From the NCBI GenBank assembly GCA_037892935.1, contig JAYXKI010000006.1:1426001-1490000 (forward strand): a stretch of DNA of 64,000 bases, read 5' to 3'. Source of the stretch: Phlebopus portentosus. Lineage: Eukaryota; Basidiomycota; Agaricomycetes; Boletales; Boletinellaceae. Within the stretch, counting starts at the first letter, position 1, and each line of letters starts with the position of its first letter. The position numbers were made by a program, and so were the translations under genes. The notes under the pieces were generated by a model. That model did no database searches and was not told where the DNA came from. It saw only the letters and a program-made list of their open reading frames with translations. Shown here piece by piece: positions 1,152-63,942 of this stretch.

Positions 1152-1197
1152 TAACACCGACGGGATGTAAGAAAGGGGTGAAATGCATGACGCGAAA

Positions 1198-2265: not shown

Positions 2266-2925
2266 TCCAGCAAACACCTCGAACGCTGTCTGGTCAGAAG
2301 CTGAGGCTGAGGGCCTCAAGTCGGGGAGCAAGGCACCCAGAGCACCTTATCTCTTTTCAATAGAATCTCAAGAACTTCAGAATTGATAATGCCACGATGC
2401 CGTAATGTGAGAGCGAAACATATTCGGCGCGTTATCTGAAAGTGACGCATGTCAGGCACAGCGGGCAAGTAAAGCTGGGCATGCATGGGTGTGATACATA
2501 TATATAACAATTACAGCCGTTTGTGCAAAAGTAATGGCAAAAGCCGAAATTCACGTGTTTTTTGATACACTTCATTCCAAAAACAAGTTAAACAGTATAT
2601 TTCTCAAGAAATACTGTACATAAGATTATGATATAACTACATAGAGAAAGAGTCAGAAAATGTGCTTCCAACAATGTAATTATGTCCCAAAGACGTTGTG
2701 TGTACGTGGCGAAACAAAAAAGATATCCTCATCAAGTCCATACCTTATGATCTCCCTCAGGCAATGCAAAAATCGTAGCTTATGAATTATTCTATGTAAT
2801 GATCTGATTTGAGTGGCATAAATCATATTACACCTGAGGCTATCCATGGCTGAGTTTTTGTGGCATGTCTTGTGCCCTTTATGGTAGAGCAGGACAACAT
2901 GCTAGCATGGCAGAGTGAAAAAGAT
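2266..2925. other. Spacer between the inverted arms, no gene seen
   Basis: AT-rich stretch of about 650 bases between the SDR start codon and the SDR relic. It must contain the promoter of the SDR gene reading leftward. I see no open frame with family resemblance and no terminal repeats. It is the central spacer of the inverted duplication. Confidence 0.5.
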
Positions 2926-3030
2926 GAGAAGAAGCTTGAGATGCACTCTTTTTTTGTTAGCAGCAACAAAGCTCAAAGACTATTTGGACGGGTGCATAAG
3001 GTGCCTAATGAGGAAGAGAGGCTTGCTTAA
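2926..3030 (+). pseudogene. Relic of SDR gene 3' end (arm 2)
   Basis: About 35 codons matching the C-terminus of the neighbouring SDR, in the opposite orientation: EKKLE, then SSNKAQRL, then VHKVPNEEERLA and a TAA stop at 3028-3030. Upstream sequence (2820-2925) only weakly resembles the rest of the SDR, so this is a truncated copy and cannot encode an enzyme. Its value is diagnostic: it fixes the ancestral reading frame of the SDR tail, and it shows that the tail-to-tail MFS/SDR pair was duplicated as a unit in inverted orientation. Confidence 0.65.
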
Positions 3031-3219
3031 ATTTATATGTTTAATCCAATCTCAGCTTGGGCTATTCACACTTCATCACGTCTTGCATTTCTGTCTCGTC
3101 AAGGCATCATGAGTAAATGCATTGCGCTCCGACCGTCGTCAAGCAGTGTACATGAAATAAGGGTTTTTGTACGCAAGGAAAGAATCAGTCTCTTCATTAT
3201 GCACAAAGTAATTCTTAGC

Positions 3220-5725
3220 TCACTGAATATTCGTTAGGTCAAGGAAAGCGTGCTTCTCTCGCTCCCTTTCAATATCTTCGTCTGTCCACCCGTTTCTCGC
3301 TTTCAGTTCTGCGATATGAGCCCGTTTCTTCGCATTTAGGCGGAGATTGATGAAACGGAGAATATAGCAGATGAACAACTGAGACGCAAGTGGGACGAGC
3401 ATTGATATCTTTCCCGGCAGATAATCTAACACAGGTCGGTCGTGAGCACCTTCTTCGAAGTTCAGTGAGTCCTGAAAGGGGTCCGAACCTGGTGCATCTC
3501 TGGGCAAGAAAATCTCTGTTCCAATAGCATTTCATAAGCTAAAAGAGATAAGGGTCATTGCATTCACCGTGACTTTTTTCGTGTGGCCGCTGATATTGCT
3601 CGCGTTGTATGCATAAAGTGCAAGTGCACAACCATCGAAATTCACGATCCAGGATGCTAAAGAGCAATGAATGTCAATCGTTAAGTTTCTGGAATAGTAA
3701 CGGCTGAGTAATCGACGTGCCAAAAGGGAGAGCTCCTTTCTTTCCTGAGTTGTTCAGACCGACCAACATGGCGGCTCCGATAATCGCAGGAATCAACGAT
3801 GGGACAATAGGGATCATTCTCTCATTCTACGGAGACACTCATCATCGACGCGAGGAAGTTTGGAATAAAGTAATTTGATTTACTCATTTATCAGCGTACC
3901 AACCTAAGACCAGCGTTGCGACTGCTCCAATGAGACCTCCGGGAGTCCCCAGAATCAGAGCTTGCTTGGACCTATGTCAAATGTCAAACCATTTTGGGGA
4001 AGATCAAATGGTGCTTTCGTAACATAGAATCAGTATAAACCTTTCTTCATGATATTCTGTACGCTGATACCTTTATGATAATAAAGCCGACTTAGAGGCA
4101 ACGGTTAGTAGTCCGATTAGAATCAGCAAGGATTTCTTGATGGACAACCCGCAGTTCGCCAATCCTCCATTCGGGATGTTTGCTGGAAGAGGCAAAATGA
4201 TGTGGGTGTGTATATACGCATTGACAAGAGTTGAAAGTACAACCAGCCATGTCCGGATATCCGTCAATGCTTCGATAATCTGTGCCTTCTTGATGGTCTT
4301 GTTTTCCGTCCCGCATTGGTCATCCCGGACACGTTCAAGAGCAGTGATACGCTCCTCGCGCGTCAACATATTCGCAAGCCCCGGAGAATCAGGCATCCAA
4401 ATGAGGACGGCTATACCGACCACTATAGCAAGATCCCCGAGCATAAGGAACAGAATGCGGTAAGATGCAAAGTCCTTGTCTGAATCGAAGGATATCCCCT
4501 GAAAGCATTTCATTAACAATATCAGGATATCTAAGACGAGACCAGCTCACATAGGCAACGAAACCTCCGAAGACGGGGGCCAAACCAATCTTGATCATGT
4601 TTGATAACTTTCATGCAAGTAGAGAAGAACATACCATCACATAGAATCATGCAATTCTTTGGGACTTCGGAAAAGTGATCTATGCAAAGCTTTCCTGATA
4701 TACACGTATGTAAACATACCATACCTGCTCATTCTTCTCGTAAAACATAGAAACGATGAGAACCAAGGTCGGAGCGACAGAACTCTCAAGCAATCCTGAC
4801 CACGCGCATCATGTAAGGGAAGTGAGCATTGTCATACTTTTTGAAGGGAAGTAATTGAGATACCTAGAAGAAGGTGCAACACAAAGAAGGGTACAAACGT
4901 GGTGGGAACAGCCTGGAGCATCAAGACGACTCCCCAGAGAACGACGTTGACGCCTTGAAAGACGTGGATATTCGATGTTCCTGATGCTGATTCCATATAC
5001 TAGTACTCACCAAGATATTTACCAAGCCTAAGCTTCTGCGCGATAAATTGGGTTGGAAGTTCCTAAATGAAATATCCTTAGATTGAAACCACAGTAAGAG
5101 AGCTACCTCAAGACAATCATCACATGTACTGGCCTACATAGACGGCTAATGCGACGAGATTGTAATTATAGGGCGAATCCATTCGTCAGCTAGGGGAACG
5201 ATTAGGGAAAGCCTGTTTTCTGACCTGTCCGGTAATGGAAAATCCCATGATGCAATTGCACGCAATTAGAGCTTGTAAGCCACTGAGAAGAGTTCGTGTA
5301 CTTTGCGTAATTTAGGGACGTCTTATCACTAGAAAGCAAGTATCGAGTTTCTCATACAGTCCAGACGGGCTAAAGGAATCTTTGCTTACAGGTACTGGGT
5401 GAAATACACCGCGCGCTCAGAGGAGCAATCACCCAGTCCTGAGCGGCCAATAGACATGAGCGAGATCTCATGGAAAAGGACGGAAAAGGATACGTGCAAG
5501 CTTCTTACGCAGCTTCAAATTGTACTCCTCGCTGAATTGCGTTTTCCGACGCACACCAACAAGTTCTAGTGCTTCGTCGCCATCCCTCGCATCGATAGAG
5601 GCTTCATCAGACGCGAATTCAATTGTCGGAGTCTTTTCATCAAGGGGCATATTCGAGTCCATTTTCTCCTTTGAATGGCGTCTGTGCTCAAGACCTGTCA
5701 ACTTTCGTTGATGAATCGAAGCCAT
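3220..5725 (-). pseudogene. MFS transporter, Dal5/allantoate-permease type, broken full-length copy (arm 2)
   Basis: Second copy of the transporter at 1-1151, here with its N-terminus. The ATG at 5725 (MASIHQRK) leads into an acidic hydrophilic N-terminus, then KLRKKLA, DWVIAPL, DKTSLNYA and the TM segments typical of Dal5-like anion:cation symporters. These are spread over many short exons down to DLTNIQ at 3223. Two breaks are visible. An in-frame TGA at 3532-3534 replaces the Gly codon of SFSLGNAIG. A GCGCGC tract at 5411-5416 puts the TM1 exon out of frame; two bases fewer would restore the family pattern YFTQYLDKTS. The terminal exon found in arm 1 has also lost its acceptor AG. I read it as a pseudogene whose sister copy is at the window's left edge. 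Confidence 0.75.
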
Positions 5726-46161: not shown

Positions 46162-46619
46162 TGTAAGGACTCGAACATTTTCCTTTTCTTTTCTGACATC
46201 ATCATTTATTTTAATATTCTTTTTCTTTTCTTTTATTTTTCTTATGCGCTTATTCATCCTTTTGCCGGAACATTCCACAATGTTCTATCACGCTCACTAA
46301 TCACCCCATTCCTTGTCATGTGACTTCCCTTTAGGGTAGACCTTTCCCGCACCCAAAGTCTATATAAGTAGATAGTCTGACTCTTTCGTTCCTTGTCTTT
46401 CTATTCTACTTACCTTCACTGCGACCTAGGTATCTACTCTTGTATTATTAGTTTGCTGAATTCTACTTACCTTCACTGCGACCTAGCGTTCGACGGTCTG
46501 GACTTAAGCCTCGTCTTAGCTGTCTTGACCTGAGCGACGTGTTTGGGATTATCTCATTCACACTTGTTTGTTGTTGTGTTGGCCTGCCTCGACTCAGTCC
46601 TTGAGCCGTCCGCCTAACA
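46162..46619 (+). repeat. 5' LTR of element 1
   Basis: 458 bases, TGTAAGGAC...CGCCTAACA. TATATAAG at 46361-46368 places the start of the RNA near 46395. A 26-base unit TTCTACTTACCTTCACTGCG.. occurs twice in R/U5 (46404-46429 and 46461-46486). Confidence 0.92.
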
Positions 46620-46632
46620 TAATAGAAAGACC
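46620..46632 (+). other. Primer-binding site, self-priming type
   Basis: There is no TGG tRNA-type site after the LTR. Instead 46621-46631 (AATAGAAAGAC) is the exact reverse complement of GTCTTTCTATT at 46395-46405, the predicted first 11 bases of the transcript. This is the arrangement of Tf1, whose own RNA 5' end primes minus-strand synthesis. Confidence 0.72.
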
Positions 46633-47035
46633 TACCTCTGGCTCACGCCCGATTCCGTTGTCGTCGAGCGCTCGCCTGTGATGTGTCCCCTGAAGTATAT
46701 CTTCGAAGGACGACATCGAACGAAACCCGGTTCCTACCGTGCAGACAACAAACCCCTATCTTGCCCGTCGAAGTCCAATTGACTCCGACGTGACCCGATA
46801 GTACCCGAAGTATCAACCAATCATATCACCGTGGCGCTCCGAATCACCCTTCTCTGGAACTCCCATCAAACCTTCTCGTGGGTAACGCATAGAGTCCAGT
46901 CATCGACAAGTATCTCCTTCATTATCTACCTCGGAGCCTTTCGTTTAGTCATCAATTTCAAAGACAAGCCGATTATCCGAAGCCGGGCCCGCCCGAATAG
47001 CATCCCAATCCCCGTTCCACCCCCAGCCTATCAAG

Positions 47036-48481
47036 GTGGAGCTAACTGATGAGCAACGAGCGGCCCTCCCTGCGAACTCTAGGTGGAGCGCCTCGCGAGG
47101 ACATTACATCGTCAAAGCAGGAAATCAAGTCTTCGGCGCCTGGTGGGACGAGACTGCCAAGAGGTGGTACTCCCAGAGGGAAGGAAGGTCCATCCACTGG
47201 AGAGTGAAACAAGAAGGCGACATAGACGAGCCCTCACCTCCTACTCCGACGCAACCAACGGCCCCCTTACCAGAACCATCGGGTTCGACCACTCAAGCGT
47301 TGGCTCCCACTGTTGAGCCTTCTCTGGCGTTTGGAAAGTTCCGAGAACCAGCGCCGCTCATACCAAGTGAAGAAGACGAAGAAGAAGAAGAAGAACACGA
47401 GATGTCATTGTCAAAGGAAGCGATGACTGATCTCGCAACGGCGGTCGCACTAGCGCTCCAAGCTGCAGGCGAAGGTGCGAACCAAGGATCAAAGGTGTCG
47501 AAGAAGGTCCACGTCGCCAAACCAAGAGACTTTGATGGCGAACATAATTACGTGGATTTCAAGCGAGAGCTGCGCCTCTACATCTACGCATCTGAGTCAG
47601 AGTTCAGGACGAACAAGAGTAAGATTATGTTCGCCCTGTCGTACATGAAGAGTGGTGCCGCGGCTCGCTGGGCGGAGAGTTACACCAGTGGAGCAGTCGA
47701 TGCAGATGGCAACTTGACATTCACGGACGCCTGGGACGCCTTCTTAAAGAAGCTGGACACTTCGTTCGATGACCCTGCCAGATCCCAAAAGGCCTTCGAA
47801 CGACTAGATGCGATGTACCAAGGAGACCTCAACGCCGATGAGTTCTTCAACAAGTTCGACATCTGTCGAGTGGACGCTGGTCTAGCGACGGAAGCACATG
47901 ACGAATGGTTGATGAGTCACCTGAAGAGGGCACTAAACCCCAAGGTTGTCGAAGGCGTCATGAGATTGCCTAATGAACCAACGTCGTACGAAGAATTCAA
48001 GAAGGCTGCCGTCAAAGTCGACAGGGTCGAACGTCAAATCAGGGATCTGATGGCCGAACGTCGGCGGAAGGCGACAAGCTCGACTATGACGAAGCCGGCT
48101 CCAGTACCACCACTGCGACGCCCAGTGCCGCCTCAACAAGCGGCTCGTCCCTTTGTACCCCCCGCCCAAGATCGTCGTGATGCAACGGGAGTAACGTATG
48201 GAGGCTTAGGACAGCCAATGGACGTGATGATGAACCAGGCGCATCGTACACGTACTTGTTACAAGTGTGGTCAGGTGGGCCACTACATCAGGGAATGCCC
48301 ACGAGGCCGTGAAGCGATACGTGCCATCATCGCAGCCTTTGTTCCAGAAGACAGAGAAGCGCTCCTCGAAGAACTCGGTCAAGCGAAGGAATCCTCCTTC
48401 GAAGAGGTTGAGGTCCGAGCAGTGCCCACTGAGCTGGAAGAGTTAGTGGACGGTGAGGGTTTTCCAGCAGACCAGGCGTAG
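47036..48481 (+). CDS. gag: Gag of LTR element 1
   Basis: Capsid/nucleocapsid polyprotein of about 480 residues: an N-terminal [20 protein letters not shown] segment, an acidic Glu run, the gypsy capsid region ([42 protein letters not shown]), and one CCHC zinc knuckle [14 protein letters not shown] near 48256-48297. It ends at TAG 48479. No in-frame ATG precedes the capsid region: the frame is open from a TAG near 46950 but offers only GTG at 47036, and the first in-frame ATG is near 47402. The true start is therefore unresolved (non-AUG, spliced or mutated). Confidence 0.85.
48457..48463 (+). other. -1 ribosomal frameshift heptamer, element 1
   Basis: GGGTTTT in the phase G GGT TTT relative to gag, placed immediately after a pol-frame stop (48454-48456) and seven codons before the gag stop. 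Slipping back one base enters the pol frame, which is then open through 48523 and beyond. It fits the X XXY YYZ rule for -1 frameshifting. Confidence 0.72.
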
Positions 48482-51400
48482 ATGTCGGAACGACTGGTCG
48501 GTCTCCTAAAGGACTCTTTTCGTTGGACTCGTTAAAATATAATCGTCCTGTTGTACAAAATCAAAAGGCAAATATCAGCGATGGTTTTACCCTTCGAAAG
48601 ATCCTTACCGACGTACTGCCAGATGAATCTGAAGATGACAACAATGACTTCGAAGTCTATGAAGATCTATTTGTCAGAAGAACAGATGCGCAAGCAGGCG
48701 AATTGAGAGAGGAAGAGCGGAATCAAACTGCTATAAAAAATGAGGTTGTGGCAGAAGCACCTTACCGCGAGAACGTTGTTGCTCAGGCGAACGTCACTGA
48801 AGCAGTGTGGGATGTAGTAGGCAGACGCACAGCTGAGGTATGGCGCGAGGGCATTGTGGACGCAGATCAGTTTGTGCGACGGGCGGGAGGAAAGGAGTTG
48901 GACGCCTTCGTTAGCATCGTACACCCAAAGGTAGCAGGCGATGACGAAGTAGACTTGTCAAACCCCCTACTCGAGGAGGAAAACTTCATTGATGCTCATG
49001 CACTGATCGACTCAGGATGCACGGGCTCATGCATCGATGAAGGTTTTGTCAAACGGTATGGTTTCCCCACCCAAAGGTACATTCGACCTAGACCAGTCTT
49101 CAATGCTGACGGAACAAGCAACGAGGCTGGATTGATTAAAGAATACGTAGTCGTACGAATGTTCTTTGGGAAACACGAGGAAGAGATTCGACTGGCAGTG
49201 ACATCCTTAGCGTCAAGCAACATCTTCCTCGGACATGACTGGTTGACGAAGCATAATCCTGAAATTGATTGGAGATTAGGAACAGTTAAGTTCACCCGTT
49301 GCCCTGATGAATGTGAGTCGCCACTGTCGAGTGAAGAGATAGATGAAGAGTTTGTGAGGAATGTGTGGATGAAGGAAGTGGCAAAATGGCCACCTTACCT
49401 GGAGGAATATGCTGACGTCTTTAGTGAGGAATCGTTTGAACGCTTACCAAACCACCGAATGTGGGATCACGCTATTGACCTGAAGCCGGATTTCAAACCC
49501 AGCGACTGCAAGGTTTACCCGTTATCGCCAAAAGAACAAGAAGCGATGAGGGAGTTCATTGAGGAAAACCTAGCGTCAGGACGTATCCGACAGTCGAAAT
49601 CTCCAATGGCGTCACCATTCTTCTTTATCAAGAAAGAGGATGGGAGCTTACGAGCAATCCAAGACTATCGAAAGCTCAACGAAGGGACGGTCAAGAACAA
49701 ATACCCGTTACCGCTGATAAATGAGCTCATCGACAAGGTTAAGGATGCAAGGTACATCACGAAGCTCGACGTTCGTTGGGGATACTACAACATCCAGATT
49801 CGCGAAGGAGATGAGTGGAAGGCAGCGTTCCGGACAAATCTAGGCTTATTCAAACCCACAGTCATGTTCTTCGGCTTGTGTAATGCGCCAGCGACATTCC
49901 AAGGCTTCATGAACGACATCTTTCGGGAACTAATCCATGAGGGTATTGTCATCATTTACCTCGATGACATTCTCATCTTCTCGAACGATCTAGAGGAACA
50001 TCGCAGATGCACCAAACGAGTCTTTGAGATCCTTCGCCAAAACGGACTTTTCCTAAAGCCGCAGAAGTGCGAGTTCGAAGTCGACACAGTCAAGTACCTC
50101 GGGCACATCATTGGCAATGGCGAAGTTTGAATGGATCCCAAGAAGACAGCAGTGGTACAGGACTGGCCAATTCCAAGGAACGTCCACGAACTGCAACAAT
50201 TCCTGGGACTAGGAAATTGGTTGCGACGTTTTGTTAAGGATTACAGTTCGGTCGTCAAACCCTTGACTACACTGACGGGTAAGGTGGAATGGAAGTGGGG
50301 CGAAGACAAGAAGGCAGCGTTCGAGGAATTGAAGCGTCGTCTGAGTAGTCCTCCCGTGTTAGCGATACCCAACAATGAGGACCCTTTCCGGGTAGAAGCA
50401 GATGCATCGGACTTTGCGACTGGTGGAGTCCTTCTCCAGAAACAAGATGGCAAATGGAAGGTGATCGCTTATCGGTCGTCAACATTCCTAGAGGCAGAGC
50501 GAAATTATGAAATTTACGACAAGGAAATGCTCGCCATCGTTCAAGCCCTAAAGGAATGGCGACAATATCTCCAGGGAGCTAACCAACCTTTTGAGGTGTG
50601 GACAGACCATGCAAATCTAACGTACTTCCAATCGCCGCAGAAGCTAAATCGTCGACAAGCTCATTGGCGACTCGATTTAGCTGAGTTCGACTTCATGCTA
50701 GTCCATAAGCCTGGAAAGACGTTGGGAAAAGCCGATCTGTTGTCACGCCGGGCGGATTATGACAAGGGCGAGCGCGATAATGAGAACGTGACTTTCGTCA
50801 AGAAGGAATGGCTGGTTAGAGGAATGGTTCAGACGTCAAGAGAGGTACTCGTTGAAAAGGTCGTGGAAGCGCAGAGACAAGAAGATGAGGGAGTGAGGCC
50901 GAAGGACGTCGAGAAGAGAGGGGACATGTGGAGAAAGGGCCGCCGGCTATATGTACCAGCGAGCATCAGAGAGGACGTCATGAAGGAACACCATGACTCG
51001 ACCCTGGCAGGACATCCAGGAGCAACCAAGACGATCCAGCTGATAGCATGCAGGTACTGGTGGCCAAGGATGAGTGCAGACGTGCGGGTGTATGTGCGGG
51101 GGTGTGATCGTTATCAGCGGACGAAGGCTCTAAGGACAATGAGAGCAAAGGTTTTGCACCCTAACGAGGTGCCGGAGGCGCCATGGCAGATTGTCACGGT
51201 CGACCTAATCGGAGAGTTGCCAGAATCGAATGGGTTCAATGCGATTTGCGTAGTGGTCGATCGCTTTAGCAAACAAATCCATGCGATTCCAACAACGACA
51301 AAGTTAACGGCGGAAGGCATGGCTAGGATCTACAGAGACCACGTCTTCCGATTACACGGACTACCATGGAAGATCATCCATGACCGAGGGGTGCAATTCG

Positions 51401-52347
51401 ACGCGAAGATGATGAAGGAGTTGTACAAGCTCCTCCACATTGAAGGCAACCCGTCGACAGCGTATCACCCACAAACTGATGGACAGACAGAGCGGGTTAA
51501 TCAGGAACTGGAACAATACTTGCGACTATACGTCAACCATCGGCAGTCGGACTGGGCGGACTGGCTGGCTCTCGCAGAATTCGCATACAACAACCGTGAA
51601 CATTCAGCGACGAAGCTATCTCCCTTCTTCGTCAATACAGGAATGCACCCCTTAGACTTTACGGGGGTTGGAACGGCATCATCGAACCTGTCAGCAGAAG
51701 AATTTGCCAAGCATGTCAAGGAGGTGCACGAACTTGCTCAAGGTAACCTAACCCAAGCAAATGAAGACATGAAGCGCTTCTACGACCGCCATGCTGGGAA
51801 GTCCATTACCTATGAGGCAGGGCAGAAAGTCTTCTTAGACGGACGAAATATCAAGACGATCCGACCGACGAAGAAGATGGATGATAAATGGTTCGGTCCC
51901 TTCGAGGTAGTGGAAAAGGTTGGTGCAAGTGCATACAGACTCAAACTACCGAAGACCTGGAAGAAGGTCCATCCAGTCTTCAATGAGATCTTGCTCAAAC
52001 CAGCCGTTCAACTGTCCTTTGAATCGCAGAAGAAACCACCTCCACCACCACCAGTGATCATTGATGAGCAGGAAGAGTACGAGGTTGAAGAAATACTCGA
52101 CTCGCGTCTGCATCGAGGCAAGCTCCAATTCTTGGTCAAATGGGTTGGATATGAGGAAGCGACTTGGCAGCCAGAATCCGACGTCAAGGATAATGCGCAG
52201 GAATCAATTCAAGAATTCTATCGCAAACATCCTGGAGCTCCGAGGAAGTTAACGATACCTCGACAAAGCCTGCGAGCGCTGTACAAGTTCACGTCCTCAG
52301 AAGGCTTATGTGGTTGGTCGGGACGCCCAACCTTGAAGGGGGGGTGA
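48457..52347 (+). pseudogene. pol: Pol of LTR element 1 (PR-RT-RH-IN-chromodomain), one nonsense codon
   Basis: Ty3/gypsy polyprotein in the -1 frame to gag. Protease: [12 protein letters not shown] (about 48998). RT: KCEFE.., core motif YLDDILIFS (about 49958). RNase H: EADASDFATGG and WTDHANLTYF. Integrase: HHCC region HHDSTLAGHPG..RYWWPRM..GCDRYQRTK, then VDLIGEL, HDRGVQFD and QTERVNQELEQY (the D, D, E core is present), and a GPF-type module. A chromodomain follows (YEVEEILDSR..LVKWVGYEEATWQPES). The frame is broken by TGA at 50128-50130 between RT and RNase H (GNGEV, stop, MDPKK), and the fourth HHCC ligand is Tyr (TAT) rather than Cys at about 51111. The terminal stop TGA (52345-52347) abuts the purine-rich tract just before the 3' LTR. 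Confidence 0.9.
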
Positions 52348-52805
52348 TGTAAGGACTCGAACATTTTCCTTTTCTTTTCTGACATCATCATTTATTTTAA
52401 TATTCTTTTTCTTTTCTTTTATTTTTCTTATGTGCTTATTCATCCTTTTGCCGGAACATTCCACAATGTTCTATCACGCTCACTAATCACCCCATTCCTT
52501 GTCATGTGACTTCCCTTTAGGGTAGACCTTTCCCGCACCCAAAGTCTATATAAGTAGATAGTCTGACTCTTTCGTTCCTTGTCTTTCTATTCTACTTACC
52601 TTCACTGCGACCTAGGTATCTACTCTTGTATTATTAGTTTGCTGAATTCTACTTACCTTCACTGCGACCTAGCATTCGACGGTCTGGACTTAAGCCTCGT
52701 CTTAGCTGTCTTGACCTGAGCGATGTGTTTGGGATTATCTCATTCACGCTTGTTTGTTGTTGTGTTGGCCTGCCTCGACTCAGTCCTTGAGCCGTCCGCC
52801 TAACA
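52348..52805 (+). repeat. 3' LTR of element 1
   Basis: 458 bases, matching the 5' LTR except for four single-base transitions by eye. Preceded by the polypurine tract GAAGGGGGGG (about 52335-52344) and followed by the target duplication GGAAC. Confidence 0.92.
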
Positions 52806-53828: not shown

Positions 53829-55171
53829 TGAAACTCCTGTGCACTGTCTGATAGCTGAGGAGTGTCACAGTTCTTGGGGGCTGTTCGGTAAGATTAAAAC
53901 GAGTGGAAAGAGAAGGGTGACTCTTGGAGGGGAAAACTGGAGAAGCGCTGATGCGTCGATCTGGGTTCCGGAGCGGTTCCGGAAGGGATGGAGGAGAAAT
54001 GGGATTGAAGGCTGCTGGATGTATGCGAGGGGGGGGGATTGGATTAAAGGAGATAGGCGAAGAAGCAAGGCGGGAGAAGTCGAAGCAAGGGGGATTGGCG
54101 GTGGCGGTGCGAAGGTAATCGATGTCCTCACAGGTAATCCCTCGATGGATTCGAACCCTGGAGGCGGAAGACGATGGGACGAAGCTTAGAGAAGGACTTC
54201 CCCTAAGCGCTGACGATTCGAAGGTGATCCCTTCGAGGATCCAACACGATATAACGGGTTACGACGAGTTACGACGAGTTTCGGTGGGTTACGAAGCGAA
54301 ACGGAGCTATACGACGCGGAACGAAGCGATACGCAAGGGACTCAAGTGAGACCTTGCGTAGAGGCGTAGGGAGGAGAGATGAGGGTCTCTGACTTCAACA
54401 CGGGTTGAACTGATCACACTGGGCTCGGGTACGACTGCAGAGCAGGAGACTCGAGGCGTATGAGACAGAACTATCGTGTATTTGTGGGAGATAGAGTCGA
54501 GGAGAGTACAGGAAGAGTCGAATTGGTCTCGACTGTAGCTGAAGTGGGTTCAAGCCCGAGCTAAACTGTTTTCTGCTAAAACTCTCCGGGCTAAAACTGG
54601 GCTCCTACTACAAGTTGCTCGCCTATTTATAACTTTGTCTGAACCTGAGCCATCGGAGCGTCAGGGAGCATAACGAAAGGAAATCGGAAGTGAAAATCAT
54701 AAGGGAACGCACGGGAACAAGGTACGAGGTGAGCATATCTGGAAGGTGGCGAGATAATGACCATAGAGCATAATACGACATGTGAGCGCACACGGAATAA
54801 TGAGCATAAGAATCATAAGGAACAAAACAAAATATGAACGCATATGGGACTCAAAAGGGGAAAAGCCGGAGCGCGTCGCGTCGGGTCGAAACTTGGGAGG
54901 TGTCGGGGGCCGATTGCGGATCCTTCAATTTACCTCTCGTGCCTGGGTTTAGTAAGACGAGCTAGCTAAGTCAGCCTTTGTAAGTTTTCGACTGGGTGGC
55001 TCGAGCGTCCGAAGGTTCTTCCTACGCAGCGGTCGAGTGCGAGAGGCTACAGTAGTCCGTTCCACTTCGAATCGAATCGATCCGCACTGAGTTCCACTGT
55101 TACGATGCTGATCACCGCGGAACACGTGTCACGTGCGCGATCTCGGACCTAGCGTGTCGATGCTTCTTACA
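53829..55171 (-). repeat. 3' LTR of element 2 (about 1.34 kb)
   Basis: Read on the minus strand it starts TGTAAGAAGCATCGACACG at 55171, directly after a purine tract (AAGAAACCGGGAGA), and ends AGTTTCA at 53829. Left edge: matches the 5' LTR fragment at 63963 base for base for 38 bases, while the flanks differ. The U3 start contains two CACGTG boxes (55123-55135). Short ACGACGAGTT-like repeats occur near 54255-54320. Confidence 0.8.
55123..55135. promoter_or_regulatory. Twin E-box in U3 of element 2
   Basis: CACGTG at 55123-55128 and 55130-55135, one base apart. This is 36-48 bases inside U3 and about 170 bases upstream of the antisense gene's ATG. The position would let one factor act on both the LTR promoter and the antisense gene; this is inference. 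Confidence 0.45.
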
Positions 55172-55305
55172 TCTCCCGGTTTCTTGAAATCGTGACTGTC
55201 CGCAGTCACACTCCCAATAGGGTTAGACTCGGCGTCTCTAGATTCTTGACGCGTAAAACGCGGTTCGCGACGCGTTCCGTTCATCTATCCTCTCTTCTCT
55301 CCGTC

Positions 55306-57226
55306 ATGTCCCATCAACAGCAACAACAACAGCGACAACAGCAACAACAGCAACAGCAGCAACAACAGCCGCTGTTCGACGAGATTCCTGTCTCAGCGGA
55401 GGGCTTCGTGTTCAGCGACACGTGGCTTTACGGTGTCGGAAACCAGGTCCAGGTCATCGAGCGTTTGCACGAGGACGTGGATCAGAGACGGTTCGTGAGG
55501 ATGACCGTTGCGCAGTCCGTTGAGAGGGCGGAGGAAATGCGTGAGATCCAGGTGTGCTTTCTTTTCTGTCTTCATCTATTCTCTTCGTTCCGTTCCGACT
55601 TCCTGAATTTCATAGACCGCGAGAAGGAGACTCGAGGACCTTCGGCCCGAGTGGGTGCCCATCGATTTGATGTGGCCGCCGTATGCCGCGCGTTTCTGGG
55701 CGGAAAGCGTGGTTGCGCTTGCGGATCGTTGCGCAACCCTCAACATCAACTGCGACCAGCTCGATGCGCTCAAGGCTTCGTACCTCGAGGATGAAAAGCG
55801 TTCGAAGCCGGACACCGAAGTCTACGTTCAGCAATGGCGCGCGGGTTTGACCGGTCTAGAAGGGGCGATCGGTCGTCACCGCGATCTGCTACGGCCACTG
55901 GTTGGCCATTTTGACGAAAGGAAGGACGAGCTGGAGAATACGGTCATGAAAATCGATCTGGACCAGGTGAGTGCTCATTCTCGCTTCTTCTTCTAATCTT
56001 GCTAACTGTTGAACTTCTAGCTATGGCGGATGTTTTGGGTCGGTCGTCGTCCTCCCGGCACGGAGATTGACGACGTCTGGACCGAATTCGGGTGGCTCGC
56101 TTGGGCGGAGATCCGGGGAATCCTCCTCTCAGCGCCGCTGAAGAGTCACGTCCACGAGGCCCTGTGGTGCTGGACTGCGTATGAGGAGAAGTGCTGCCCG
56201 TGCTCGGTCAAAGCCGCAGACGCACTCGTTGCGCTGCGTTCCGATGCGCATCTCGGCGGATCGGGCCCCTTTTCGTCGGGTATATCCAAATTGACCGAGT
56301 CTGCCCTCAGGACGCTGCTGGGTCGTCAAGACTTGAGTCAGGTGGAGCGGGAGTCCGTCATCAGCGAGCTGGAAGATCGTGCGGACCGAGTTTCGTACTT
56401 GAGCGAGCTGGAGAAGATGGCAAGCGCGGTCAGGGTTCCGTCGCCATCTTCGGATCGCAAGAGAGATGAGAGGCCCACGAAGCGGCCTCGGATTGTCGAT
56501 TATTCGAGCGACGAGGAGTCGGTAGAGGGGAACTGCAACAACAGCAGCAGCAACATTCCTTCTGCTGCCAACGGTTTCTCTTCTGGGGGTCCGGCTGGAG
56601 ATGACGACTTTGGGGCTTTTGACGAAGCGCCCCTCTTTCTTCCGGACGGTGCTGTCAGCGAGAGCAACAGCAGCAACAGCAATCCTCTGGCTGCGAGCGA
56701 GTCTCCGAGTGCAGAACGAATGGAAGAGGATGAGGGAAGCCAAGGCGATGGCAGGGACGGTAGCAGCAGTAGCAGCAGCAGCAGCAATTCGTCTGCTGGT
56801 GGCTGGGTCGTGCATGATGAGGGGTGTGAGAGGTGCGCGAGGGCAGGCCGGGTCTGTGAGGGTTTCCCTGGGCAGGCCTGTGATTACTGCCGCACGAAGG
56901 CCAGGCGGCGATGCGAGCTGGCTACGCACGGGAGGGCTGCGCGTCGCCTGCGGAACGAGCGGGTGGAACGCAAGACGCGCGAAGCTCGTCAGCGCGTAAC
57001 GGCGCAGGTGCTGAGGATGCCGGTTGCGCCTGTCCTCGGGGTGAGTGACATCGAGGAGTTGGTCGCCGGGACGGACGAGAGCGCCGTCCATTTTCGGATG
57101 GCGGCCTTGGAGAGGCGCGTGCGCGTGTTGTTCCGCGCTGCGGATCAACTGCGCAACCTAGCGGAGGAGATGCTGGCCGAGACCAGTGCGCTAGGAAGGG
57201 TGGTAAGGGGTGAGGAGGAAGAGTAA
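55306..57226 (+). CDS. Retrotransposon-borne antisense gene: polyQ, Zn(II)2Cys6-like protein
   Basis: Lies wholly inside element 2 on the strand opposite to gag-pol, converging on pol. Three exons, 55306-55551, 55616-55966 and 56021-57226, all phase 0, give 600 residues. ATG 55306 opens MSHQQ and a glutamine run. Next comes a conserved-looking region: FSDTWLYGVGNQVQVIERLH, DLRPEWVPIDLMWPPYA, LWRMFWVGRRPPGTEIDDVW, HEALWCWTAYEEKCCPCSVK. A basic nuclear-type signal (RKRDERPTKRPRIV) and long Asn/Ser/Asp-rich linkers follow. Six cysteines at residues 468, 471, 478, 486, 489 and 497 (CERC..C..C DYC..C) have the C-x2-C-x6-C-x7-C-x2-C-x7-C spacing of fungal zinc clusters, followed by an Arg-rich segment and a helical tail. 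It probably binds DNA. Antisense introns survive retrotransposition, since they are not spliced from the element's own RNA. Function is unknown; it might regulate the LTR. Confidence 0.75.
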
Positions 57227-57791: not shown

Positions 57792-60700
57792 TTATAAGTT
57801 GAGGTTTTGAGATTCCGACTGGGCATCGGAAACATCGTCTTCTTCTGGTTCGATTGGGGGGTTGGCGTCGTCCTCGAGTTCGTCATCTGCTGCGTTTACG
57901 AGTTTAGTAACGGGTACAGAGAGATTCGAACGAGGAAAGTAAGGAATCAGGCGAAACGCAGCTACTCGGATCTTCGAGACTGATCCGTCAAGTTCCGCAA
58001 TGACATATGAGCCGGCCTTTGTTTTGCGTACTACCACGTAGGGTCCTAGGTATCGGGGCTTTGTCTTGCAATTAAGTTCCATTTTGATGCGCGTATTTCG
58101 CAACAATACGAGTCGTCCTGGCTGGAAATCGTAGTCTTTGATTTTGGCCTTGTTGATCTCTTCGAATTGTCGCGCGTATGCATGCCGGGCATCGGAAACT
58201 AGTCTAGCGATTCGATCCAGTTCCTCAGGGCGCTTCTGGAGCTGCTTCGCACGAGTTGCGATAAGTTCCGCAGTCGGAACAGGCGTATCGACCGGGGGGG
58301 CTAAGTACGTGGCTTCGGCGAGGTCGAAAGGTAGAATAGGCTCTACTCCGTGTACCATGTAATACGGGGACATTCCGGTCGCCTTCTGGATGGTGATTCT
58401 TTCTGCCCAAAATACTGAGTAAGCTTGGTCGCTCCATCGTTTGTCATTACCGTCTACAGCCTTTATCAGGGCTTCCTGCACATCGTAGTGGCGTCTTTCT
58501 ACAATTCCATTGGCGCGAGAGTTGTATGCTGAGATGCGTATGTGATTGATGTGATATCGATCCTTGAGGTAATCGAGTGCTGTGATGAACGGTTTCCCAT
58601 TATCTGTTACGAGCTCGGGACAAGCGCCGTATCGGCAAAGGAGGTCTTGGAAAATGAACTGGGCTATCGCTTTGCCGGTTTCTTCGCGCAAGAGTCGAAA
58701 TTCGGGGTAACCAGATAAAGCGCATCGGGCTTGTACGATGTACCGGTATCCTCCAGACTTCGGCATTACCTTGGTGTCGATGTGTATGTGCTGGAAAATC
58801 GATGGTATTGTTGGTACGACCGGGGGAATTAGAATGTTCTTCGTCTGGCGAACTTGGCACTCATGACAGGTGCGCACGTAGTATTTGACGTCTGGACCGA
58901 GGGTAGGCCACCAAAATCGTTCCAGGAGTCGAATTCGAACAGAGTATACTCCCTTGTGGCCTAGATCGTCATGCGCTTGCTTTACGAGGTTCCATCTGCG
59001 TTCCGGTTCGATTACGACCTGGTGTCGTCCGTTCCGCACTTTCTTCCACAAACGTCCGTCTCTAGCGAAGAAATTTGCCGCGTACCTGATCAGTGCTGCA
59101 TAGCCACGATCGTCTAACTGATCCGGTCGCTTCTGGCTGATCAAGAAGCTCTTGACGTCATCCAAGCGAGCGTCTTTCGGGTTAGCTTTCTCGGAGCTGG
59201 GAAACAAGGTCAAAGCGATGTCAGTCATCTTCGGGAAGTCAGAGTCGCCGTTTCTCTCCCGGCGTTTCCTATTCGATTTCTCGAGGTATCCTATTGATCC
59301 GAGAGTTGCTTGCGCATTTCCAGGGCTCGATGGGAGTCGTTTCGCTTGGTTGCGCACACGTAAGTCTGTGCAATACGTCGTAACCGGGTTTTCGATGTAG
59401 AATCCATACGTGTCGTCTATCCACTCTTCGTATCCTTCGTCCGGAGGTGGATCTTCGGGTGCCGGGGGTCGTCGAGAAAGTCCGTCGGTGCATTTGAAGT
59501 CCGCCGCCGGGATGTGGCGAATCTCGAAGTCGAATAGAAGTATCCCGGCGATCCAGCGGTTGATCGTAGCGTTTGGTTGTAAGTCCGGGTTGTTAATCAT
59601 GCCTTTGATGTATGCTGCGTCCATTTCTACGACAAGCTTGCGCACTCCGATGAGATATAGTCGCATGGCGTGTAACGTACGAAATAGTCCGTAAAGTTCG
59701 ATTTTCGGTTGGGAGTATGTTGCTTGCGTAGCATTCCAGTTTATGGAACCGAAGCGATTAATCCTTCTTCGTCCATCTACGTGTTCTTGACCCAAATACC
59801 ATCCTACTCCGATAATCGATGAATCCACCGCTAGTACGACTTCGAGTTCCGATTGATAGTCTATTGCGCATAGAGCTGGGCACCTAATGACCGCTTCCTT
59901 CAACTCGTCCATTGATTCCTGTTCTTCGTCTGTCCAATCGAAAATGTTGTTCTTCCGAGTGAGTCGATTGAGGGGGCGTGCCATCTTGGCGAAATCCTTA
60001 ATGAAAATTCGCAGGACTCCCACTGTTCCGAGGAATCCTTTGACTTCAGTTACCGATCGGCATGGCGGCCAGTCACTGACCTTCTGGACTTTCGATTCGT
60101 CTGGCTCTCGTCCATAATATGTCAGTTTGTGTCCGAGAAATACGATTGACTCAACGCCGATCTCCATTTTCTTTCCTGAGTACGTCCCTCCCACTGCCTT
60201 GACTCGCTGCAAAATTCGATTTACGTCGCATATATGCTCGTAAATAAATCGCCTAATCCCTGGATTCTCTGGCAGGGTTTCGTAAGAGCCATCCGGGAGT
60301 TCGTAGCGCGTTTTGGGACCTAATCCGGGCGAATCGTCTGCATACGGATCGGTACAGTGCGGAATCTCGTCTTGTAGGATGAAAGCGACGTCATTGTGCA
60401 TAATCTGAAGGGAATTCGTGTATCCCATCGGGAGAACCGTCATTCTGAACGTTCCCAAGGGAGTCTGAAATGTCGTGAGATCTCGAGAGCGTTCATCTAG
60501 AACTCGCTGGTCAAAAGCCACATAGAAATCGAGGCTCGAATAACAACTTCGTCCGCCGCAACGCTCCGCAATGGTCTCTATATTCGGCGGAACGGCTGAG
60601 TCTCGGACGGAAACGCCATTCATGTCTTGCAGGTCGAGTATAAATCGAAGGGAGACTCCATCTTTCTTGACTAGGCAAAACCATCGTGATCGGTACGAGG

Positions 60701-61385
60701 AGTTAGACGGTTCAATGGCTCCATTCTTGATTTTCTCGCGAATCAGGTTGATGGTACGCTCGAGAATACCCGGAGGAATAGGTATGTTCTTGTGTACCCA
60801 CGGTACATGCGGTACCGTCGGGATGCGAATCGGATCGAAGTATTGCGCATCGAAACTACCCTGTTCCGCTTCCGTCCACGCTAGTGCTCCTTCCTGCAGC
60901 ATAAGTAGGTTAGCAACTAGCAGCCTTTCTTCGGGCCATAAGAACTGATTCTCGTCAATCCTGAGGGCTTCAAACCGCTCCTTCGTTAGTCTGCCTATGG
61001 GCGTAAACGGTTTCAGTTTCTTTGGTATTTCGGGCAGTCCTTCGAGCAGGTTCGGATGCCTCCTTCGGACGATCCGAAATTCTTCTGGTAGTACCCCGGG
61101 GACGGGCCGTACTTTCTGAGCGACGTGTTTGTACATGAGTACCGCCGGGTCGTCGTCGTCCGGGGTCTCTAGAATACATGATCTATAAGGTCGATTTGAA
61201 TAGTCAGTAGCGAAACGCATTGGGTCTTTCATCAGCTTCCGAAGCTGGTTACTAAATAGTGAGGTGAAAGTGTCGGAAACATCGATAGAATAGATAGAAA
61301 ACGTATTGTTGAGGCTTGAACACGAATAATCGCCTACGTCTCGCTGACGTCTTAGTATCAGTTCCTCGACGTCTGCTGAAAACCC
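57792..61385 (-). CDS. pol: Pol of LTR element 2 (RT-RH-IN)
   Basis: Intact polyprotein. The first ATG is 61232, but the frame is open back to the frameshift site at 61385, which I take as its entry. RT: PFTPIGRLTKERFEAL, EPSNSSYRSRWFCLVKKDG, LPMGYTNSLQIMHNDV, core PYADDSPGLGPKT. RNase H: LAVDSSIIGVGWYL, YSQPKIELYGLFRTLHAMRL, DAAYIKGMINNPDLQPNATI, TDGLSRRPPAP. Integrase: HHCC (HDDLGHKG..CHECQVRQTK, all four ligands), HIDTKV, LVTDNGKPF, NGIVERRHYDVQEAL (the D, D, E core). A GPY/F-type module (LGPYVVVRKTKAGSYVI) follows, then an acidic tail; no chromodomain. The motifs match an Agaricomycete gypsy lineage I know from memory. Confidence 0.92.
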   Translation of the reverse strand, partial: GFSADVEELILRRQRDVGDYSCSSLNNTFSIYSIDVSDTFTSLFSNQLRKLMKDPMRFATDYSNRPYRSCILETPDDDDPAVLMYKHVAQKVRPVPGVLPEEFRIVRRRHPNLLEGLPEIPKKLKPFTPIGRLTKERFEALRIDENQFLWPEERLLVANLLMLQEGALAWTEAEQGSFDAQYFDPIRIPTVPHVPWVHKNIPIPPGILERTINLIREKIKNGAIEPSNSSYRSRWFCLVKKDGVSLRFILDLQDMNGVSVRDSAVPPNIETIAERCGGRSCYSSLDFYVAFDQRVLDERSRDLTTFQTPLGTFRMTVLPMGYTNSLQIMHNDVAFILQDEIPHCTDPYADDSPGLGPKTRYELPDGSYETLPENPGIRRFIYEHICDVNRILQRVKAVGGTYSGKKMEIGVESIVFLGHKLTYYGREPDESKVQKVSDWPPCRSVTEVKGFLGTVGVLRIFIKDFAKMARPLNRLTRKNNIFDWTDEEQESMDELKEAVIRCPALCAIDYQSELEVVLAVDSSIIGVGWYLGQEHVDGRRRINRFGSINWNATQATYSQPKIELYGLFRTLHAMRLYLIGVRKLVVEMDAAYIKGMINNPDLQPNATINRWIAGILLFDFEIRHIPAADFKCTDGLSRRPPAPEDPPPDEGYEEWIDDTYGFYIENPVTTYCTDLRVRNQAKRLPSSPGNAQATLGSIGYLEKSNRKRRERNGDSDFPKMTDIALTLFPSSEKANPKDARLDDVKSFLISQKRPDQLDDRGYAALIRYAANFFARDGRLWKKVRNGRHQVVIEPERRWNLVKQAHDDLGHKGVYSVRIRLLERFWWPTLGPDVKYYVRTCHECQVRQTKNILIPPVVPTIPSIFQHIHIDTKVMPKSGGYRYIVQARCALSGYPEFRLLREETGKAIAQFIFQDLLCRYGACPELVTDNGKPFITALDYLKDRYHINHIRISAYNSRANGIVERRHYDVQEALIKAVDGNDKRWSDQAYSVFWAERITIQKATGMSPYYMVHGVEPILPFDLAEATYLAPPVDTPVPTAELIATRAKQLQKRPEELDRIARLVSDARHAYARQFEEINKAKIKDYDFQPGRLVLLRNTRIKMELNCKTKPRYLGPYVVVRKTKAGSYVIAELDGSVSKIRVAAFRLIPYFPRSNLSVPVTKLVNAADDELEDDANPPIEPEEDDVSDAQSESQNLNL

Positions 61386-61969
61386 TGTTGCGCAACGTTG
61401 CGCAACACGTTCCGAATTCCAGTCGCGACCTTACTATGTCGATTCCTGTCGTTGGGGTCTGATAGCGTTATATGCTGGTCTCCCGAGGTATAATCCTTGG
61501 TTTCGCATTCGGTTACTGCGAAGAAGGGTCGTCCGAGTAGCGCCTGGAACAGTGCCTGACGAACGACATGCACTTGCAGGGAAAGATCAATTCCGGCTAT
61601 CGTAAACTTGGCGTTCGGGATTAATCCTACGGTGGCCGACTTCGCTATGTCCGCCATCTCGATGGTCGTGCTCTGGTCCGGTGATAGGGGCACTTGAAGT
61701 TTTTCCCAAATGTCTTCCCTAATCAGACACACTGCTGCGCCTTGATCGAGTATGCACTCCACTTCCATCGCGTCCTCCACTACGGCTGTAATCGTACGAA
61801 GGGGGAGAGTTGCTTCCGTGGTCACTCCCGACGTTCCGATGGACAGAATCGAGTCCTCAGGTTGTTGCGATGCGGTTCCGCACAGTTGCGTGGCGTAACT
61901 CGGCGATTCGACGAGATTCACATCGGCAGCGTTATATCTCTTTGCGGTAGTGAGTTCCTTTAGTTGCTT
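61358..61969 (-). CDS. pro: Protease region of LTR element 2
   Basis: Retropepsin-like domain in the same frame as gag, beyond the gag TGA: AMEVECILDQGAAVCLIRED (active-site Asp in DQGA), VHVVRQALFQALLGRPFFA. It ends at TGA 61358-61360. There is no ATG at the start of the domain; the first in-frame one is MNLVESP-like GTG/ATG sequence near 61921. It is therefore most simply produced as Gag-Pro by reading through the stop at 61970-61972. Confidence 0.75.
   Translation of the reverse strand, partial: KQLKELTTAKRYNAADVNLVESPSYATQLCGTASQQPEDSILSIGTSGVTTEATLPLRTITAVVEDAMEVECILDQGAAVCLIREDIWEKLQVPLSPDQSTTIEMADIAKSATVGLIPNAKFTIAGIDLSLQVHVVRQALFQALLGRPFFAVTECETKDYTSGDQHITLSDPNDRNRHSKVATGIRNVLRNVAQQGFQQTSRN
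61379..61385 (-). other. -1 ribosomal frameshift heptamer, element 2
   Basis: On the minus strand GGGTTTT in the phase G GGT TTT relative to pro, seven codons before the pro stop. A one-base slip enters the pol frame, open from here to ATG 61232 and onward. It is the same heptamer and spacing as in element 1. Confidence 0.72.
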
Positions 61970-63640
61970 TCATAGTTTGGGGGCGATCGATAACAGTTCC
62001 CTTTGGCTAAGCGTAATGCTCGTGTCGAGCGTCCGAGTGAGCACGTTAGAGACAGCGTTAGAATCTTCAACGGGGACTACGTAGCGGTATTGGGGTTGGG
62101 GGTTCGAGGGTTTTCTAATATCATCCCGCTGCGGTGACGAACGTGAAACCGCCGGGGACTTAGGAATAGGGGGTGGCGACTGCTGCGCCTTCGAAGCCCC
62201 TCTTCCCGGCGGTCCCACCTTAGTCGGAATGACTACTCCGTCGAACTTCTGCCTTTTACCAGTCGCCGCTTTCTTCTTTGCCTCATTGAGCAAGATTTCT
62301 AAACGTTCCACTTCGTAATCGGTCTCTTCTGTCTGATCCTCGCCGATTTCCTGGAGCATAGCTGATGCTATCGGCTCGGCCGGGGTTTCCGGGTGCTCGG
62401 CGACTTCAATGATGTTGACTGGATGTGACGGGTTCGGCTTTAGCAAGTTGTCAATTCGCTCCATCAGGTTCCGGCCCGAAACCCTACTTGATACGAAGGC
62501 TCCGTTTGGCATGACTACTCGTCCGTTTGAGTCACGTAGACACTTTCCGGCCTGGATATACTCGAGTACCATCGGGCACGACCTTATAAAGTGGCCGGGA
62601 TCGCTGCAGAACGCACATCCGGGCGTGCGAGCCAATGGGGCCGGTTGCGGACCTGTTGCGATTTGAGGGCCCTGGCCTCTAGTGAGCGATTCCAGTGTTA
62701 CCTGAAAACCCTTCAGCGTTTCCCAAACTTTACTCAAGTCCGTTTCTTCCTTCTTGACGGTCATTCCATGTCCTCCCGACGATGCGCTCATCGTTGCGCT
62801 CGTTCCGCCGCTCATCGGGTCGGATCCGATCTGATCGACTGCAGATCCCGAAAGAATGTACATGGCTGCGTTTGCTACTTTCTCGGTGTCGTAGGGGTCG
62901 CCCCTCTCGTGGTCCGGGTCCTTGATTTCGAGCCTTTGCAGGATATCCTTCCTAGTCTGGCCCGAAATGCCTCGAAGAAACGCGAATTTCGAGTCGTTCT
63001 CGGTAAGTTTGTTGCTGGCAACTAGATACCTGGCTCTGCGTAGGAACTCGCGATGATAAGTGCCGAATTCATCTCTGGTGTGAATACCTTTCTCGGCCCA
63101 TTCGGCGATGAACTGCTCCAATTCGCCCCTAGAGTATCTCTTGCCGTCTGCCAAACTTGGATAAAGCTTCTTGACGGCCGTTTTGAAATTCCCGACGCTC
63201 GCAGGGGCGGCAGAAACTTCGGGTAGGGTCTCCCATACTTCTGCAACGTCAGTCTTCGCATAGTACAGGTACCCACGTCTGATGGTAGTCGACGCATCCC
63301 AGTTGGAATCTATTGCGATCGCATCCACGTCGTCGAAGAAGCGGAACAGTTCCTTCGGATCGGAACCGTCGAATACTGGTGCTCTCTTGTCACCTCGAAG
63401 AGGTGGTCTAACTGCAGCCATCTGGTTCGATATACGCTGCAACTGCTGATAATTGGTCTGAAGTTGGTTAAGGATCTGCAGGTTGCTTCCCAGTCCTTGG
63501 AGGTGGTGAGCGAGAGTCAATCCGCTTGGTTGCGACTGTTGCGCAAGCGGATCGACTTGGATCGCTTGATCGGAGGTTTGAGGCTGTCTGAGCCTAGCGG
63601 GGTCTGGGTAATTGAGTCGAACAGTGATATCCTCTGGCAA
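61970..63640 (-). CDS. gag: Gag of LTR element 2
   Basis: Nucleocapsid polyprotein: Gln-rich N-terminus, GDKRAPVFDGSDPKELFRFF, RRGYLYYAKTDVAEVWETLP, YSRGELEQFIAEW, EFLRRARYLV, FLRGISGQTRKDILQRLE, one CCHC knuckle (CAFCSDPGHFIRSC near 62610-62570), then a Pro/Ser-rich C-terminus. It ends ..APKL at TGA 61970-61972. The frame is open another 80 codons upstream of the TTG at 63640 (Ser/Thr/Pro-rich) to a TGA near 63880, but no ATG occurs in it, so the start is unresolved, as in element 1. Confidence 0.85.
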   Translation of the reverse strand: MPEDITVRLNYPDPARLRQPQTSDQAIQVDPLAQQSQPSGLTLAHHLQGLGSNLQILNQLQTNYQQLQRISNQMAAVRPPLRGDKRAPVFDGSDPKELFRFFDDVDAIAIDSNWDASTTIRRGYLYYAKTDVAEVWETLPEVSAAPASVGNFKTAVKKLYPSLADGKRYSRGELEQFIAEWAEKGIHTRDEFGTYHREFLRRARYLVASNKLTENDSKFAFLRGISGQTRKDILQRLEIKDPDHERGDPYDTEKVANAAMYILSGSAVDQIGSDPMSGGTSATMSASSGGHGMTVKKEETDLSKVWETLKGFQVTLESLTRGQGPQIATGPQPAPLARTPGCAFCSDPGHFIRSCPMVLEYIQAGKCLRDSNGRVVMPNGAFVSSRVSGRNLMERIDNLLKPNPSHPVNIIEVAEHPETPAEPIASAMLQEIGEDQTEETDYEVERLEILLNEAKKKAATGKRQKFDGVVIPTKVGPPGRGASKAQQSPPPIPKSPAVSRSSPQRDDIRKPSNPQPQYRYVVPVEDSNAVSNVLTRTLDTSITLSQRELLSIAPKL

Positions 63641-63942
63641 CGAGGATTCTTGCTCGGAGAATTCGGTAGGTAGATCGGTTTCTTGGAAACTAAAAGGAGA
63701 CGATTCGGCCGACGGCTCGAACGATGGTAGGGTACTGGACTCGGTTAGAGGTGAAGGTTGAATTACTGAAGAACTTAGCGACGATGCTGTGGTGCTTCTA
63801 GCGCTTGCCCTCTGCCTAGGTGTCCGAGGTGTGACTTGGGGTAAGGCTTGGTGAACTACGGGGATACGGGCTGATTGGCTTCAGGTAGTCTGAGTACTAC
63901 CTGGAGTTTGGTTACTCGTTTTGGACAAACAGTGAATTTCCC

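Follow-up and report, generated by a model that had tools for sequence, protein, structure and literature searches.

Antisense open reading frames between pol and the 3' LTR are known from several plant retrotransposons, and gene23 of Grande, RIRE2, PvRetro13 and the TRP28 frame of Retand are examples (PMC7264820, PMC11963269). In plant Retand, 97% of clusters were found to carry antisense ORFs with a TRP28 domain, which is predicted to be DNA-binding; a regulatory role has been proposed and HBZ is cited as a parallel (PMC11963269). From fungi, brtn has been mentioned in short descriptions as an antisense additional gene of Boty (BcGypsy1) in Botrytis cinerea and Sclerotinia (PMC8365987, PMC4227169, PMC5987419). 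Because the antisense ORFs of plant Retand, with their predicted DNA-binding domains, and brtn of Boty had already been described, the initial annotation went too far, as regards the concept, in calling the Phlebopus portentosus gene studied here a candidate for an undescribed system. The fungal system is multi-copy with near-identical recent copies, encodes a domain of a normally DNA-binding type, contains introns that would report strand-specific splicing and offers a defined 18-bp candidate site, so that the old question of whether an antisense gene regulates its element becomes directly testable. The system further illustrates the persistence of introns in a retrotransposon and draws attention to a six-Cys domain missed by Pfam.

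The window, a stretch of 64,000 nucleotides (C6:1426001-1490000), was analysed together with the genome to which it belongs (38.37 Mb, 23 contigs). Splicing and translation of the window DNA gave an antisense gene at 55306-57226 on the plus strand with three exons and 600 amino acids, lying between pol and the 3' LTR of a Ty3/gypsy element, hereafter element 2. The gene model of the initial annotation (600 residues, three exons, two introns, phase-0 joins) proved exact, its antisense placement holds, and the Gln run, the NLS-like motif and the six cysteines are all there. The features are as follows, in window numbering.

53829..55171, minus strand: 3' LTR of element 2, the sense strand of which is the minus strand
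55172..55183, minus strand: putative polypurine tract of element 2; it adjoins the 3' LTR and is part of a block that families A and B have in common
55192..55209, either strand: 18-bp palindrome GTGACTG-TCCG-CAGTCAC, which adjoins the putative polypurine tract and precedes the antisense gene
55306..55551, plus strand: exon 1, 82 codons, with the start codon and a Gln-rich run at 55315-55368
55552..55615, plus strand: intron 1, 64 nt, GT..AG, phase 0
55616..55966, plus strand: exon 2, 117 codons
55967..56020, plus strand: intron 2, 54 nt, GT..AG, phase 0
56021..57226, plus strand: exon 3, 401 codons and the stop codon, with an acidic and Ser/Asn-rich linker, the six-Cys domain and predicted C-terminal helices
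56456..56497, plus strand: NLS-like RKRDERPTKRPRIV, predicted from sequence only
56825..56914, plus strand: six-Cys cluster, codons 468, 471, 478, 486, 489 and 497
57792..61430, minus strand: pol (RT, RNase H, integrase), from Pfam
61358..61969, minus strand: open frame between gag and pol, presumably an aspartic protease, judging by position and motif
61970..63880, minus strand: gag-like frame with a CCHC knuckle and DUF4100, both below the Pfam cut-off
63963-65305, minus strand: 5' LTR of element 2, mostly past the window end

Element 2 has the make-up of a Ty3/gypsy retrotransposon, namely a pair of LTRs (1343 bp, 99.78% identical), a gag-like frame whose domains score below cut-off (zf-CCHC_2, 17.1 bits against 27; DUF4100, 25.3 bits against 27.9) and a pol in which RT-RNase H precedes the integrase. 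RT_RNaseH, RT_RNaseH_2 and Integrase_H2C2 exceeded the Pfam cut-off, RVT_1 fell below it (26.8 bits against 29.6), and a chromodomain was not matched by Pfam in this pol. When the flanks of this one copy (53829 and 65305) were read by eye, no matching 4-6 bp repeat was seen as a target-site duplication; despite the 99.8% identity of its LTRs, element 2 is possibly a recombinant or has an altered flank. The window also holds element 1 (46162-52647), a Ty3 element that has a chromodomain, 100% identical terminal repeats of 300 bp and a pol split by one in-frame TGA at 50128-50130. An antisense accessory gene is absent between pol and the 3' LTR of element 1, where the pol frame ends at 52347 and the LTR begins at 52348.

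The gene resembles the plant antisense ORFs in being antisense, in occupying the interval between pol and the 3' LTR, in occurring in most copies and in having a proposed regulatory role; the plant products are nuclear or predicted to bind DNA, and DNA binding is likewise predicted for the fungal protein. The plant ORFs, by contrast, encode TRP28/PF04195 or other domains and belong to plant hosts, and the word 'intron' occurs 0 times in the main texts of the two plant papers (PMC7264820, PMC11963269), whereas the fungal gene has two introns. With brtn the gene shares the status of an antisense extra gene in a fungal Ty3/gypsy element; unlike element 2, Boty is described as an ascomycete element with a chromodomain. 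The brtn gene of Boty (BcGypsy1) is said to go back to Zhao et al. (2011). HBZ of HTLV-1 differs from the fungal gene in being a bZIP-type protein of a retrovirus; it has a spliced form and is driven by the 3' LTR, and the likeness is drawn without a claim of homology. That likeness consists in HBZ being an antisense retroelement gene whose product is nuclear and has a role in the life cycle (cited in PMC11963269). Literature searches at the level of titles and beginnings of abstracts showed no basidiomycete element with an antisense gene of zinc-cluster type, and the terms antisense and zinc are absent from PMC9674265. As far as these searches show, the basidiomycete lineage, the intron-bearing antisense gene, the zinc-cluster-type domain with its apparently swapped halves and the conserved palindrome travelling with the gene are new.

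A search of the genome with the gene DNA gave at least 51 pieces (best 40 of 60 candidates scored), of which the 20 best (L009-L028) were studied further; without L028, which is partial, they make up 19 near-complete copies of family A. Both GT..AG introns are present in all 19, a complete spliced frame is found in 13, and the gene is broken in the other 6. Continuity at 93-100% identity was observed in 18/19 copies into the C-terminal kilobase of pol and in 18/19 into the inner 500 bp of the LTR, the exceptions being L023 and L026. The proposal of the initial annotation that the introns persist through retrotransposition agrees with this retention, which is as expected from copying of the sense RNA: the introns would survive because they read backwards in the genomic RNA.

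The pol search, in which the best 38 of 896 candidates were scored, yielded 19 pols of family A (85-100% identity) and 19 of a second family, B (73-75%). Among these scored pols an antisense gene or gene piece lies at most 2.5 kb downstream of 17/19 in family A, two of the 17 being shortened derivatives (C8:1634609 and C7:2050562), and of 19/19 in family B. The distance from pol to gene is 562-633 bp in 14 family A cases, 1080-1450 bp in three in which the pol match ends early, and 459-474 bp in family B. The two A pols that lack a gene of their own are at C8:1544310, with a piece of a B gene downstream in the same orientation, and at C16:454028, a decayed copy with 19 stops. The gene has two properties of the antisense additional ORFs of LTR retrotransposons (aORF-3R): its frame is antisense to gag-pol between pol and the 3' LTR, and it is present in most scored copies.

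Read from L050 and L051, the B gene is likewise split into three exons, joined in phase 0 across introns of 52 and 47 nt (736 and 731 aa); the stretch fetched for L052 begins within exon 1 and therefore lies outside the B splicing comparison. The proteins of A and B gave a convincing BLASTP match only over A residues 462-586 (34% identity, E 1.7e-9), a stretch that comprises the six Cys, LATxGRA, a basic stretch and a C-terminal helical stretch, and their N-terminal parts are different or have diverged past recognition. The gene has thus diverged more between the families (34% in one domain) than pol (73-75%). When the genome was searched with the B C-terminal domain, 94 rows were obtained; we assign 67 of them to family B (identity of at least 67%), 25 to family A (26-36%) and the remaining 2, C3:2959521 and C18:558776 (E 0.84), to neither. 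The reading as a single capture, which had been named as a possible objection to an accessory gene, was rejected because family B carries the gene as well; in this genome the gene is found in two families and at 85 palindrome-marked loci, and the data support the antisense gene as a regular part of this element lineage.

For selective constraint, the variants among the 19 family A copies were divided into inherited ones (in at least two copies) and private ones, and synonymous counts were compared with the expectation per mutation class, with CpG transitions kept apart. Inherited variants showed a synonymous excess in the gene (32/63 vs 22.9 expected, p 0.013), in its N-terminal part (21/35 vs 13.3, p 0.007) and in the pol C-terminus (23/46 vs 16.3, p 0.03), these counts being small and CpG changes recurrent, and the private gene variants were close to expectation (57/155 vs 55.9, p 0.46). 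Omega-like values were 0.55 for inherited variants of the gene, 0.55 for those of the pol C-terminus and 0.97 for private gene variants; private pol variants are inflated by L023, the pol flank of which is not homologous. A dN/dS near 1, the other objection anticipated, is therefore not what the inherited variants display, and the private value looks neutral. Conservation of the gene is comparable to that of another element protein in the family, a further property of an aORF-3R. Most private gene changes in L009-L027 are CpG transitions (114/155), as would be expected of methylated repeats. All exon indels are multiples of three except for four frameshifts, each private to one A copy. A stop at codon 322 (CGA to TGA) is shared by L019 and L024 only, which are 45 differences apart and not nearest neighbours, and it was therefore read as a recurrent CpG change. 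The gene thus appears to have been constrained while the elements moved and to have decayed afterwards, like pol.

The six-Cys part alone has 11 inherited variants, 3 of them synonymous (omega-like value 1.34), which are too few to show constraint in family A. Naive pairwise dN/dS ranged from 0.35 to 0.53 for the whole gene, from 0.09 to 0.46 for the N-terminal part and from 0.33 to 3.49 for the six-Cys part, and the last range was set aside because private CpG changes dominate it. Coding of the six-Cys stretch in another frame was also considered, and all five other frames were checked; the omega-like value was 0.45 in two of them (one minus, one plus) against that of the gene's own frame, a difference for which 11 variants are too few to separate the frames. 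The frame was settled in favour of the gene's own by the A-B protein homology and the six Cys.

The cysteines of the A protein are spaced C-x2-C-x6-C-x7-C-x2-C-x7-C, a pattern found in 0/200000 shuffles of the exon-3 protein. All six aligned Cys are common to A and B, and they are retained in 19/19 A copies at five positions and in 18/19 at codon 478. The Zn(II)2Cys6 pattern is C-x2-C-x6-C-x5-12-C-x2-C-x6-8-C, and in the canonical order the triplet with the basic loop comes first. The assignment to Zn(II)2Cys6 clusters in the initial annotation therefore stands only in part: the spacing satisfies the pattern, but the Pfam result is negative and the halves are apparently in swapped order. Like the fungal factors of PF00172, the protein has six Cys in two triplets with compatible spacing; unlike them, its full domain is not recognised by Pfam, its triplets are apparently swapped, and its cluster is near the C-terminus and is followed by a basic helix.

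Zn_clus was not matched by Pfam in A or in five related proteins from other fungi (P0001-P0005, see below) at E<=10, and none of the 58 hits obtained when the genome was searched with PF00172 at E<=1 lay within an A or B gene. Searched alone, the first triplet of B met positions 16-35 of PF00172, its second half (E 0.0052, 17.3 bits, below the cut-off of 21); the first triplet of A and both second triplets, searched alone, had no Pfam match. The domain profile weakly met residues 28-47 of the solved chains of Pho7 and C27B12.11c (E 1.7 and 2.2). AlphaFold modelling of exon 3 was poor (pLDDT 47); for the last 140 aa the mean pLDDT was 73, with weak cluster blocks (about 51-71), and two long helices are predicted, one that begins within the second triplet and one at the C-terminus. 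Foldseek with this C-terminal model gave 0 matches at E<=0.001 and 4 weak ones at E 5.8-9.2, one of which is a Pho7-DNA complex.

A six-Cys cluster of this kind is also encoded at two loci that belong to neither family, a host-like gene at C3:2958952-2960132 (L053) and a locus on C19 near 108138 (L054; locus 1258-2052). The C3 gene is readable as three exons with phase-0 joins, has no element frames in the 4-kb stretch that was read, and its first triplet weakly meets PF00172 positions 15-31 (E 0.55). L053 and L054 possibly represent an unrecognised zinc-cluster class of this fungus, and a half-swapped class would apparently be common to host-like genes and elements, to judge from the sequences. 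Two 451-aa frames at C6:61048 and C15:1187773 have an equal weak Zn_clus score (19.9 bits each) and may be a duplicated or mobile gene.

Relatives are encoded in three Sanghuangporus species, where the NCBI gene models are labelled hypothetical proteins and the nearest named matches are those of S. sanghuang: P0001 (A type, 93%), P0002 and P0003 (B type) in S. sanghuang, P0004 in S. weigelae and P0005 in S. baumii. Both splice joins are visible in P0001, P0003 and P0004, and only the second in P0002, which has a later start; P0005 has both splice positions with one extra residue at the first, and P0001 and P0003 skip part of exon 1. The identity of the B protein to its relatives in S. weigelae and S. 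baumii is 90% and 98% in the Cys cluster, 90% and 89% in the part after the cluster, 85% and 77% in exon 1, 82% and 66% in exon 2, and 76% and 76% in the linker. Protein searches, the sensitivity of which is word-limited, found no relatives outside Sanghuangporus; the first search with the A protein gave 7991 candidates dominated by Gln-run words, and a search with the A C-terminal part alone returned only P0001 again. TFIIA matches in P0003 and P0005 (31.1 and 16.4 bits, cut-off 36.2) over the Gln/acidic stretch were rejected and read as composition.

The palindrome upstream of the gene recurs with it. The pattern GTGACNGTCCGCNGTCAC with at most one mismatch had 87 hits in the genome and its reversed control 0, and 85/87 hits are followed within 4 kb, in the same orientation, by a gene piece, which is of family A in 26 cases and of family B in 59; the remaining hits are C14:423064 and C6:330820. 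The family B form is mostly GTGACCG-TCCG-CGGTCAC, in which both arms are altered and the palindrome is retained; both arm differences between A and B are CpG-type transitions, and mixed forms occur. The palindrome and the putative polypurine tract are situated inside a 52-bp block that is 85% identical between A and B, and no comparable match between A and B was found in the remaining spacer. This conservation argues for a function as an operator, a promoter element or a reverse-transcription hairpin. As the palindrome adjoins the putative polypurine tract, it could serve reverse transcription instead; that it is not an operator but forms a hairpin, in genomic RNA or DNA, to aid plus-strand priming at the tract is a reading that we hold only tentatively. 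The distance from the LTR edge to the start of the palindrome is 20 nt in A and about as much in B (where the edge is set by alignment only), it belongs to the conserved 52-bp block, and folding of the A RNA of either strand is predicted to give a hairpin, all of which would suit priming; the position would, however, be just as well accounted for by a promoter of the antisense gene in this region.

On balance, we lean towards the reading that the gene is an accessory gene conserved in a Ty3/gypsy lineage and that its spliced antisense product is a DNA-binding regulator of the element's own transcription. The antisense transcript would arise from a promoter located where the 3' LTR borders the internal region, or close by, and would then be spliced. 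The protein would enter the nucleus and bind DNA through the six-Cys zinc cluster followed by the basic helix, the C-terminal coiled-coil-like helices would allow pairing, probably as a dimer, and the variable Gln-rich/acidic N-terminal part may contact the transcription machinery. The strongest candidate for its binding site is the palindrome that lies between gene and 3' LTR, through which the protein could regulate its own gene and control the neighbouring U3. The 6/19 broken A copies and the shortened derivatives, two of them beside A pols, count against a strict requirement for the gene. It is conceivable, if doubtful, that this regulator with its half-swapped domain binds its own palindrome and that protein and site differ together, so that each family controls its own copies; if true, the system would parallel in a fungus the HBZ-type antisense regulation of retroviruses, and its domain would be one that host-like genes have as well.

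It is unlikely that the protein acts after transcription, by binding element nucleic acid or host chromatin as a nuclear import or integration-site tethering factor. The NLS-like motif, the DNA-binding-type cluster and the coiled-coil-like helices would fit such a role, and as the pol of element 1 has a chromodomain and none was found by Pfam in that of element 2, a separate chromatin-binding protein could replace it; a separately transcribed antisense gene is, however, an unusual place for an integration factor. We consider it improbable that the antisense RNA itself is the functional product, pairing with the sense RNA and limiting copy number by RNA silencing while the protein matters little: the unit and pol are convergent, and a double-stranded RNA idea is discussed for plant antisense ORFs (PMC7264820), but the synonymous excess among inherited variants, the exon indels in multiples of three save the four private frameshifts, the six Cys common to both families and the conservation of the cluster between species all speak for the protein. 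That the gene is a captured host gene and a passenger without function for the element is very improbable, for even with the C3 and C19 loci encoding the same cluster type outside A and B, and the C3 gene readable as three phase-0 exons, capture is possible as an origin but does not explain retention in two families with pols about 26% different, beside 36/38 scored pols and under constraint like that of pol.

Shortened copies of the gene (L032, L035-L038) were considered as a second working form, which was rejected because the Gln-run frame and the zinc-domain frame differ in L035; most were read as deletions between CAG-type repeats. In L032, L035, L036 and L037 the Gln-run repeat is joined to a later repeat-rich stretch, and the matches of L035-L037 all begin at query position 1494. 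Large inverted repeats, with arms of up to 285 nt that are 77-90% complementary, were observed in the leftmost part of the window (1-4000).
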